Notes under the pieces: model-generated
What the model was told of the DNA's origin: nothing
The model's database searches: none
Seen by the model: the letters and a program-made list of their open reading frames with translations, nothing else
Part shown: positions 4,476 to 50,887 of the stretch, piece by piece
Layout: each line of letters begins with the position of its first letter
Position numbering within the stretch: position 1 is the stretch's first letter
Assembly: GCF_000703085.1 (NCBI RefSeq)
Contig: NZ_JNLL01000001.1
Span: forward strand, 1,798,001-1,862,000
Length of the DNA: 64,000 nucleotides
Direction: 5' to 3'
Source of the DNA: Persephonella sp. KM09-Lau-8
Lineage (GTDB): Bacteria > Aquificota > Aquificia > Aquificales > Hydrogenothermaceae
Made by a program: the position numbers and the translations under genes

Positions 4476-4548
4476 GGGGCAGTAGCTCAGTTGGTAGAGC
4501 ACGGGACTCCAAATCCCGCGGTCGAGGGTTCGAGTCCTTCCTGCCCCG
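4476..4548 (+). tRNA. tRNA-Trp (anticodon CCA)
   Basis: Acceptor GGGGCAG (4476-4482) pairs with CTGCCCC (4541-4547), discriminator G4548, anticodon CCA at 4509-4511. CCA tail not encoded. The tuf-rpmG-tRNA-Trp-secE order is conserved in bacteria. Confidence 0.95.
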
Positions 4549-4569
4549 CTTTTGGTTTATGGAGAAAAG

Positions 4570-4758
4570 ATGAAAATTAGTGAATTACCTAAATTTTTTA
4601 AGGAAGTTCAAGAAGAGCTTAAAAAGGTAACCTGGCCATCTAAAGAGTTGGTTAAAAACGCAACTATAGGTGTTATAGTTTTTACTTTACTTGTGTCTTT
4701 ATATTTGTGGGGACTGGATTTTATATTTTCAAAAATTTTTGATTACCTTTACAAATAA
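4570..4758 (+). CDS. secE: Preprotein translocase subunit SecE
   Basis: A 62-residue single-spanning membrane protein of the Sec translocon. It has the SecE signature FFKEVQEELKKVTWPSKEL followed by one transmembrane helix (about residues 27-50). An upstream in-frame TTG at 4552 would add six residues, but ATG at 4570 has GGAG at 4561-4564 and is preferred. It is followed at 14 bases by nusG. Confidence 0.93.
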   Translation: MKISELPKFFKEVQEELKKVTWPSKELVKNATIGVIVFTLLVSLYLWGLDFIFSKIFDYLYK

Positions 4759-4772
4759 AATGAGGTAAATAG

Positions 4773-5564
4773 ATGTCTGAAGAAAAGAAAAATCAGGAAG
4801 AAATAAAAGAAGAAAACCAGCAGGAAAAGAAGGAAGATAAGAAAAAGTGGTATGCCCTTTATACCCAGTCTAATCTGGAGATAAGGGCAAAAGAAAATCT
4901 TTTAAGAATGCTTGAGCTTAACAATATGAAAGACCTTGTTGAAAAAGTGCTCGTTCCTGCTGAAGAAAAAGTTGTAATTAAATCAATGGGAAAAGAAAAA
5001 TACAGATTATCCCTTAAAGGAGCAAATAGAGAAATAGAAGTAATGGGCAAAAAGGGTATTACTAAATTTGTGATAGAGGATGGAAAAGTTAGAGTTGCCG
5101 AGAGTGTAGAAGGTGATGAGCAGTGTGTTCAGCATAGTCCTATATATAAACCAGGACAAAAAATACAATGTAAGGAAAACAAAACAGAAGCAAAAATAAT
5201 ACTCGAAAATAAAATATTCCCAGGATATCTTCTGATAAAAGCTGAGCTTAATGATGACCTTATAGATTTAATAAAGAAAACACCATACATTATAGGATTT
5301 GTAAGTGCAGGAGGAGTTCCAGTTCCACTTGATGAAAAAGATATCCAGAAAGTTCTTGGACAGATAGAAAAAGGTGCTCCAAAGGTCAAGAAATTACTGT
5401 TCCAGAAAGGAGATCAGGTAAGGGTTATAGAAGGACCATTTATGAACTTTACAGGAACTGTAGAAGAGGTAATTCCAGACAAAGAAAAATTAATAGTTTC
5501 AATATCAATATTTGGAAGATCTACACCGGTTGAACTTGAGTTCTCTCAGGTAGAGAAGATATAA
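4773..5564 (+). CDS. nusG: Transcription antitermination factor NusG with inserted domain
   Basis: A 263-residue elongation factor that binds RNA polymerase and couples it to the ribosome or Rho. After a charged Glu/Lys-rich N-terminal tail the NGN domain begins ([13 protein letters not shown], about residue 25), is interrupted by an insertion of roughly 60-70 residues (about 70-135), resumes at [12 protein letters not shown], and is followed by a C-terminal KOW domain ([19 protein letters not shown]). E. coli NusG is 181 residues; an insertion of this kind is known from Aquifex aeolicus NusG, supporting placement in Aquificota. Confidence 0.95.
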
Positions 5565-49210: not shown

Positions 49211-49539
49211 ATGAAATATTTATCTGAAAATGAAAAAAAGCAGTATTAGCTTTGAAAAAAGAAGTATTAAAGTTAGACAAAAAAGCGAAATTAATTATTT
49301 ATGGTTCAAAAGTAAGGGGGGATTTTGATGAGGAAAGTGATATAGATATTCTTATCATTTTAGGTAATCCTTTGCCAGAACTTAAATACAAAATAATTAG
49401 ATATTGCAACAGAAATAGAGCTAAACTACGATGTAGTTTTTGGAATAGTAATAATAAGTCAAGAAGAATTCAAAAGTTCAAACATCTTTAAACAATCTTT
49501 ATATTTCAAAAACTAAAATCAGAAGGAATATATCTGTGA
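49211..49539 (+). pseudogene. MNT-type nucleotidyltransferase (antitoxin) with three frameshifts
   Basis: From ATG 49211 the reading MKYLSENEKK breaks at the A7 run (49233-49239); one more A continues it as AVLALKKEVLKLDKKAKLII and YGSKVRGDFDEESDIDILII, the nucleotidyltransferase GSxxRG...SDxD motif of MNT proteins. A second shift near 49399 (one extra base) restores IATEIELNYDVVFG, and a third at the A5 run 49508-49512 restores KLKSEGIYL and a stop at 49539. The stop overlaps a GTG start of a HEPN-like remnant, the usual MNT/HEPN arrangement. With three indels, this is probably a decayed antitoxin gene. Confidence 0.65.
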
Positions 49540-49726: not shown

Positions 49727-49746
49727 AATGGTAATATATTGCCATT
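49727..49746. promoter_or_regulatory. Near-perfect palindrome at the TAC promoter
   Basis: AATGGTAATATATTGCCATT is a palindrome except for one symmetric mismatch. It overlaps a perfect TATAAT (49724-49729); another TATAAT is at 49711-49716. It is a good candidate autoregulatory operator for the HigA-type antitoxin. Confidence 0.5.
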
Positions 49747-49790
49747 GCGCAAAAATTAATTTACAATAAATTTAACTTATAGGTTAAATA

Positions 49791-50162
49791 ATGAGTAAGA
49801 AATTTTCCTTTTATGGCGAAAAGGTTTTTAGGATTTTTATACTAGAAGAAGTTGAAAAGGAAATTGAGAGTTTAAGAGATATTAAAGGACAGAAGAAAAT
49901 ATTGAATACGTTAGATAGACTTCTTGAGAGAATACCTAATAACCCTGAGCAGTGGAAAAGGATAGAAAATTGTAAAACAGCTTATGAATTGAAGCCAAAA
50001 CCTTACAGATTAGGTTGTTTCTTTGATGGTGGTAGAGATATTTTAGTTGTGCATGTTTGGAAAGTGCAAAGTAAAAAGAGTAAAACGAAACAACAAGATA
50101 TTAAGAAAACATGTAAAAAAATTGAGGAGCTAAGAGATGAGTTTAAGAGATTTACGAGATAA
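49791..50162 (+). CDS. HigB/RelE-type toxin of a three-gene TAC module
   Basis: A 123-residue basic protein. The core FILEEVEKEIESLRDIKGQK, ERIPNNPEQWKRIENCKTAYELKPKPYRLGCFFDGG and ILVVHVWKVQSKKSK follows the fold pattern of Gp49/HigB toxins, which cut mRNA in the ribosome. It precedes the antitoxin gene, the inverted order typical of HigBA, and overlaps it by 26 bases. There is no obvious Shine-Dalgarno sequence before ATG 49791, suggesting low or coupled translation. Family assignment is from sequence pattern and context. Confidence 0.7.
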   Translation: MSKKFSFYGEKVFRIFILEEVEKEIESLRDIKGQKKILNTLDRLLERIPNNPEQWKRIENCKTAYELKPKPYRLGCFFDGGRDILVVHVWKVQSKKSKTKQQDIKKTCKKIEELRDEFKRFTR

Positions 50163-50493
50163 ATTTAAATACGATGAAGAATATATACATTGTGGTCTAA
50201 TGCTTGATTTATCTTACTACCTTAAACAACTTATGCTTGAAAAAGGACTTAATAAAAAACAGCTTGCAGAAAGAATGGGAGTATCTCCTGCATACATTAC
50301 CAAAATTTTCAGCGGACAAAACATATCCCTTAAAACTGTAGCCAAAATTTTGTCGGCCTTGGAGGTTGATGCTGGCATAAAAATAATTGATAGGGAAAAA
50401 GAAGAATACAAAGTAGCACCTAATAAAGAACTTTTAAAACTGGTTAAAAAAGGAAAAGAAGATGAAAGCAAAGCTTTCTCCATTGCAGCTTAA
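50137..50493 (+). CDS. HigA-type XRE antitoxin with C-terminal extension
   Basis: A 118-residue DNA-binding antitoxin. Residues about 28-85 form an XRE helix-turn-helix (KQLAERMGVSPAYITKIFSG, QNISLKTVAKILSALEVD). The C-terminal tail (YKVAPNKELLKLVKKGKEDE and on) is the position where TAC antitoxins carry a chaperone-addiction segment. It overlaps the toxin gene by 26 bases and the SecB-like gene by 32 bases. Confidence 0.85.
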   Translation: MSLRDLRDKFKYDEEYIHCGLMLDLSYYLKQLMLEKGLNKKQLAERMGVSPAYITKIFSGQNISLKTVAKILSALEVDAGIKIIDREKEEYKVAPNKELLKLVKKGKEDESKAFSIAA

Positions 50494-50887
50494 AGATATA
50501 CAGATTATAAGGCTAAATCTTGATGAAAATATAAAAGGTGAGAAAAAATTTAATATAGATGTTGATTTTGAACCTGTAAAAGTTAATATAGATGAAAAAG
50601 AGTATGAAGGTCTGATTTTTCACCTTAAAGTAAATAACAGAAGCAGAAAAGTAAGACTAAAAGTAGATACAGAAGCTCTGGCAATTTTTGAGTTTGAAAA
50701 AGGATTACCTCCTGAGAAGAAAGCACAACTTTTACTTTATAACGGATTATCAATTATTTATGGTTTTCTTAGAGGCTTAATTTTTCAAAAATGTTCATAC
50801 CTTCGCCCTGAAGATAGACTCCTTCCAAGTATTAATCTACTTGATATTATTGATAAGAAACTAAAAGACAAAAATAATAATTCCTAA
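50462..50887 (+). CDS. SecB-like chaperone of a TAC module
   Basis: A 141-residue protein resembling SecB-like chaperones: an N-terminal beta-rich half (IQIIRLNLDENIKG, FNIDVDFEPVKVN, RKVRLKVDTEALAIFEFE) and a C-terminal helix-strand block (LYNGLSIIYGFLRGLIFQKC and LLPSINLLDII) like SecB's ending helices. In M. tuberculosis the Rv1955-1957 TAC, SecB-like Rv1957 stabilises the HigA antitoxin. The same HigB-HigA-SecB order and the overlap with the antitoxin gene support that role here. AAGGA precedes the ATG. Confidence 0.75.
   Translation: MKAKLSPLQLKDIQIIRLNLDENIKGEKKFNIDVDFEPVKVNIDEKEYEGLIFHLKVNNRSRKVRLKVDTEALAIFEFEKGLPPEKKAQLLLYNGLSIIYGFLRGLIFQKCSYLRPEDRLLPSINLLDIIDKKLKDKNNNS

Follow-up and report, generated by a model that had tools for sequence, protein, structure and literature searches.

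The stretch of DNA analysed here (64,000 nucleotides of Persephonella sp. KM09-Lau-8, referred to below as the window) carries at positions 49791-50887 what is very probably, at a rough probability of 0.87, a chromosomal operon encoding a toxin-antitoxin-chaperone (TAC) system of the HigB-HigA-SecB type, in which the chaperone would guard the tail of the antitoxin from proteolysis. The features computed here are the gene order, the intact frames, the SecB fold, the disordered antitoxin tail, the conserved operator, the -AA end of the antitoxin, the loss of the tail in a chaperone-less relative and the presence of ClpX and tmRNA; RNase activity, a tetrameric chaperone, chaperone dependence, degradation by ClpXP and release by phage or stress are ascribed by analogy with homologues. 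TAC systems have been described in mycobacteria, proteobacteria and further groups, and the open-access papers searched included none that names TAC together with Aquificota. The module is a typical and intact one, whose basic mechanism brings nothing new.

All three open reading frames lie intact on the forward strand and overlap in the order toxin, antitoxin, chaperone: a HigB/RelE-type toxin of 123 amino acids (49791-50162), an XRE/HigA antitoxin of 118 amino acids with its HTH at residues 29-78 (50137-50493), and a chaperone of SecB fold (HigC/SecB-TA type) of 141 amino acids (50462-50887). The first two frames share 26 nt and the last two 32 nt, overlaps which suggest a single operon; since gene order and overlaps are seen again in relatives, the arrangement is not due to chance. 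The preliminary description had proposed three overlapping genes for a HigB/RelE-like toxin, an XRE antitoxin and a SecB-like protein, and reading frames, profiles and fold agree on this; the peptides that it quoted are present in the translations.

The product of the first gene exceeds the gathering scores of both Gp49 (PF05973; E=5.8e-6, 26.7 bits against 23.9) and ParE_toxin (PF05016; E=3.6e-5, 24.7 bits against 23). A search of the PDB with the single toxin sequence gave no useful match, and the profile of its family matches the solved HigB 6af3 weakly (E=0.021). Residues E66, K68 and R73 are invariant among 12 homologues and align with E, R and R of 6af3, and W90 followed by K or R at position 91 is also conserved; the residues used for comparison are E66, R68, R77 and K95 of the M. 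tuberculosis TAC HigB and R68, R73 and K92 of S. pneumoniae HigB (PMC9098466). The catalytic basic residues of HigB thus appear to be present in the toxin, K91 being a less certain counterpart of the last lysine of the characterised HigBs, and by analogy the protein is a probable ribosome-dependent mRNA endonuclease.

The second gene matches HTH_3 (E=2.2e-14) and, in the PDB, the HigA chain 6af3_B. Residues 91-118 of its product (50407-50490, forward strand) have a pLDDT of 31-47, compared with about 90 in the body, and are therefore predicted to be disordered. The preliminary description had taken approximately this C-terminal tail (about residues 92-118) for an addiction segment, and as a candidate chaperone-addiction segment (ChAD) it holds up, being disordered here and missing in a chaperone-less relative. 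In that relative (L074, from genome G022 of the same family) a solitary antitoxin at 1480-1845 has a conserved body but ends in LKQKSKKTLEIVK, with no match to the tail and no -AA, and no chaperone was found in G022; this tail-less antitoxin is a single case. Across 13 antitoxin homologues, E110 and A117 alone are invariant in the tail and A118 is almost so, and the middle of the tail is variable.

The third protein is named SecB-like by its fold, since its score against the Pfam SecB family (PF02556; E=0.0053, 17.1 bits) lies under the gathering score of 26. Of the profile searches suggested beforehand, those with PF05973 and HTH_3 came out positive and that with PF02556 stayed below its cut-off. 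The PADLOC CmdC family (PD-T4-9_C, itself SecB-like) is matched at 1.1e-6. Of the 18 members of the chaperone family, 12 match PF02556 (best 1.3e-5), and a PDB search with the profile of all 18 picks up E. coli SecB, weakly, at 0.009; the single sequence gave no useful match there, and identity to solved SecBs is below 20%. The AlphaFold model, for which 18 homologues from Aquificota and Bacteroidota were aligned, reaches a mean pLDDT of 91.7; in it, two long helices come after four long strands. Its best Foldseek match is Rv1957 with the antitoxin peptide (5mtw, 4.2e-6); the matches to 5mtw and to SecBs span 4e-6 to 1e-4, and each of the 19 PDB matches with E <=0.001 is either a SecB or the TAC chaperone of M. 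tuberculosis. VIA-align superposes the model on SecB 1ozb with Z 12.1 (rmsd 3.0, 128 residues) and on 5mtw with Z 9.6 (rmsd 3.6, 113 residues), as compared with Z of about 8 for two streptococcal proteins of unknown function and about 5 for unrelated folds. As modelled, then, the third protein has the SecB fold, and the similarity to SecB on which the preliminary description had staked its case is found in structure, Rv1957 (5MTW) and SecBs being the best Foldseek matches.

A protein of this fold could instead serve mainly as a general SecB for export, the adjacent HigBA pair being an ordinary one that works without a chaperone. Such a role would accord with no second SecB-family protein being found in the genome and with complementation of a secB mutant of E. 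coli by the TAC chaperones tested so far (PMC5105189); moreover, in the whole phylum the Pfam cut-off is reached in just one further genome, by a different SecB that is TA-linked. It is nevertheless very unlikely. The chaperone is found in only 15 of 136 Aquificota genomes, so that export in this phylum is independent of it, and in 13 of 13 copies examined its gene starts inside the end of the antitoxin gene with the same 32-nt overlap, while the disordered antitoxin tail is lost where the chaperone is absent. By analogy with characterised systems, the chaperone most likely keeps the antitoxin from degradation.

Among known systems, HigB1-HigA1-Rv1957 of M. tuberculosis (Rv1955-Rv1957) has the same gene order, the same HigB and HigA families, a disordered tail and the same chaperone fold. 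The likeness in order and overlaps to this TAC, pointed out at the outset, is upheld by the toxin-antitoxin-chaperone order and by Rv1957 as top Foldseek match. The two differ in that their chaperones are only 18-19% identical in the Foldseek alignments, and the WHRLSSY motif of M. tuberculosis cannot be recognised in the antitoxin tail here. E. coli HigBAC, an anti-lambda TAC, likewise consists of HigB, HigA and a SecB-like HigC, and is likened here by its component families; it is triggered by the lambda tail protein (PMC11980606). The anti-T4 system CmdTAC (PD-T4-9) is related through the chaperone, which the PD-T4-9_C profiles match, and through antitoxins that both end in -AA (PMC11618068), but its toxin is an mRNA ADP-ribosyltransferase and its antitoxin belongs to another family. 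Canonical SecB shares the fold, whereas the chaperone here falls below the Pfam cut-off, is TA-linked and is patchy in its phylum.

The extreme C-terminus of the antitoxin, DESKAFSIAA (50461-50490, forward strand), is a candidate ssrA-like ClpXP degron, being conserved and similar to the tmRNA tag of the host. The antitoxin ends in FSIAA here and in -AA or -AS in 13 of 13 homologues; the tag of the genome's own tmRNA (read from an Rfam match, the tmRNA having been missed by ARAGORN) ends in EREIALAA, and ClpX is encoded in the same genome. Judging from these sequences, the terminal -AA is probably a ClpXP degron that the chaperone shields. That a degron may stand at the end of a TAC antitoxin is already known from the CmdTAC paper, according to which CmdA shares its LAA end, and degradation by ClpP, with other TAC antitoxins (PMC11618068); the likeness of the antitoxin end to each host's own tmRNA tag has apparently not been stated before.

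The DNA coding for DESKAFSIAA is, in another frame, the start of the chaperone gene, and the -AA codons overlap the conserved SPLQL start of the chaperone, so that part of the -AA conservation is enforced by the overlap. At the extreme, the locus might be an ordinary HigBA pair, its tail a passive remnant and the -AA end a mere consequence of the DNA shared with the chaperone gene. The 32 nt shared by antitoxin end and chaperone start in all 13 Aquificota copies examined would be compatible with this, as would the last alanine, which comes from CAG, the codon for 75% of Gln residues in the window. The penultimate alanine is another matter: the third base of the chaperone Leu8 codon is the first base of the Ala117 codon, and Ala117 therefore needs a G-ending Leu8 codon. 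Such a codon (TTG or CTG) is used in 12 of the 12 loci with Leu there (related loci, not 12 independent events), as against only 23% of Leu codons in the long ORFs of the window. Nor does a similar end depend on a long overlap. In Cyclobacteriaceae, where antitoxin and chaperone genes overlap by 4 nt, YAMAG, YALAG or IAMAG forms the end of most antitoxins, the tmRNA tags of those genomes being GESNYAMAA, GETSYAMAA or GEESYAMAA; in an unrelated HicAB-SecB operon of the window's own family (G016), again with an overlap of only 4 nt, the antitoxin also ends in -YAA. An origin of the -AA end purely as a by-product is thus most unlikely, and the reading of a tail that addicts the antitoxin to its chaperone is preferred.

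A promoter is predicted on the forward strand at 49739-49767, with a -35 box TTGCCA (49739-49744), a 17-nt spacer and a -10 box TACAAT (49762-49767), the best match of a consensus scan (10/12). Since the scan by itself yields about as many sites as it does in shuffled sequence, the main evidence for the promoter is conservation: in seven loci the block preceding the toxin can be aligned and is nearly unchanged, and in the toxin-less locus L009 the antitoxin is preceded by a version that reads TTGACA-18-TACAAT. Three nucleotides after the -10 box begins the palindrome TTTAACTTATAGGTTAAA (49771-49788), the probable operator, which ends just before the toxin start at 49791. The preliminary description had laid the palindrome over the -10 box; it lies just downstream of TACAAT, where it would cover the transcription start. 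The same or nearly the same palindrome occurs directly 5′ of the operon in nine loci (L001-L009), the toxin-less one included, and the promoter-palindrome block as a whole is conserved in nine; the palindrome has diverged in L056, is free of mismatches in L059 (TTTAACTTATAAGTTAAA), and L057 also has a diverged or perfected form. This conservation suggests that HigA autoregulates the operon via the palindrome. A wider operator regulon was also considered and dismissed, because the genome has no other site with fewer than three mismatches and the count at three mismatches is within that of the control.

Comparison of relatives indicates that the toxin is the part that changes. In L002, the operon occupies the same place as in the window, with uvrA on one side and a ferritin-like gene on the other, and the two copies are 96% identical in their chaperones and 88% in their antitoxins but only 44% in their toxins. 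Similarly, in another genus, L004 and L005 have identical chaperones, antitoxins of 94% identity and toxins of 47%. Crosswise, the toxins of the window and L005 are 91% identical, and those of L002 and L004 87%. In both pairs the DNA identity falls at the toxin start codon, right after the conserved operator; it is regained within the first antitoxin codons (about position 50171) in L004/L005 and by about antitoxin codon 25-40 in the window and L002. Toxin trees that hold the window and L002 together, or L004 and L005 together, are rejected (AU p 1e-69 and 1e-4, respectively, for pairs picked after the sequences were seen). As read from these sequences, toxin alleles have been swapped in nature, in two genera, under near-identical antitoxin-chaperone pairs.

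Beyond these pairs, several natural variants occur. Members of the Hydrogenothermaceae, the family to which the window belongs, are thermophiles, and within Aquificota the distribution of the chaperone is patchy, one of the 15 genomes (G008) having only a fragment; in the copies examined the gene adjoins an antitoxin, several times beside defence genes. No relatives of the chaperone were found among the viral contigs, plasmids and phage records searched; more distant ones exist in Cyclobacteriaceae. In L009 (1477-2227), the toxin has been lost cleanly, with the operator now immediately preceding the antitoxin-chaperone pair, which adjoins a gene resembling a restriction-modification methylase; toxin-less antitoxin-chaperone pairs are already known (PMC4257090). 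The TAC operons of Cyclobacteriaceae (L038-L049, about 4500-5460) combine at least two toxin-antitoxin types with nearly the same tail and chaperone, which, on the sequences, amounts to a natural graft of the tail-chaperone unit.

Some further loci are worth recording. A second TAC type is found in G016 (L101, 739-1899), with a HicA-like toxin, a HicB-like antitoxin ending in RYAA and, as third gene, a SecB protein that passes the Pfam cut-off. A diverged, probably broken HigA-like gene (L082, 1495-1758) lies on the second contig of the window's own genome, and in G008 (L060, L075) fragments of antitoxin and chaperone with small TA-like genes between them represent a decayed TAC copy. The Gammaproteobacteria label of the GenBank record QOAS01000137.1 (L037 / L010) is probably wrong; its counterpart in G048 is placed in the order to which the window belongs.

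As to its present role, the module in the window lies between uvrA and the ferritin-like gene without an intact defence gene beside it. The interval between uvrA and the operon contains a truncated ORF with a nucleotidyltransferase domain (49252-49491; PF01909, 4.2e-11), which is probably left over from a different TA or defence gene, and in L097 the position of this ORF is taken by an OLD-like nuclease gene. TA modules are often maintained through addiction, and this, together with the lack of an intact defence neighbour, would fit a module kept now for selfish maintenance or a general stress response instead of phage defence, an explanation that deserves to be taken seriously even if it is not the one favoured here. 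Relatives of the operon point the other way: an OLD/GajA-like nuclease gene precedes it in L097 and L100, at two different genome locations, another such gene and a WYL-domain protein stand beside it in L099, and in L098 it is preceded by a helicase that matches PDC-S53, a defence candidate, and followed by the R subunit of a type I restriction system. These neighbours favour defence without proving it, the closest PADLOC family is the CmdC of an anti-T4 system, and the exchange of toxin alleles fits an arms race. Defence TACs have precedents in E. coli, namely HigBAC (PMC11980606), CmdTAC (PMC11618068) and MqsRAC (PMC9519451). On neighbourhood and analogy, phage defence is somewhat favoured as the main present role.

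The module could work as follows. HigA would bind the palindrome and so repress the operon, and would also bind and neutralise the toxin, the probable ribosome-dependent mRNA endonuclease. The SecB-like protein, as a tetramer, would hold the last ~28 residues of HigA, disordered and with their ssrA-like -AA end, whereby HigA folds and is protected. Titration of the chaperone by a phage structural protein or by proteins unfolded under stress would then leave HigA to ClpXP, and its degradation would free the toxin and stop translation. A bolder proposal, put forward tentatively and thought somewhat doubtful, is that in this lineage a fixed control unit, made up of operator, antitoxin and chaperone, takes varied toxin alleles, and that the tail copies the tmRNA tag of the host, whereby the unit would report on chaperone load and on ssrA-type proteolysis at once.

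Crystallisation of the full-length Rv1957-HigA1 complex has failed (PMC6377645), an obstacle that a thermophilic TAC could help to get past. The exchanges (L002 with the window, L004 with L005), the toxin-free L009 and the tail-less L074 also offer a ready series for dissecting the antitoxin, which could show which part of it meets the toxin and which creates the dependence on the chaperone. If the proposal of a fixed control unit is true, chaperone addiction would make the toxin, and not the antitoxin, the replaceable part of such modules.
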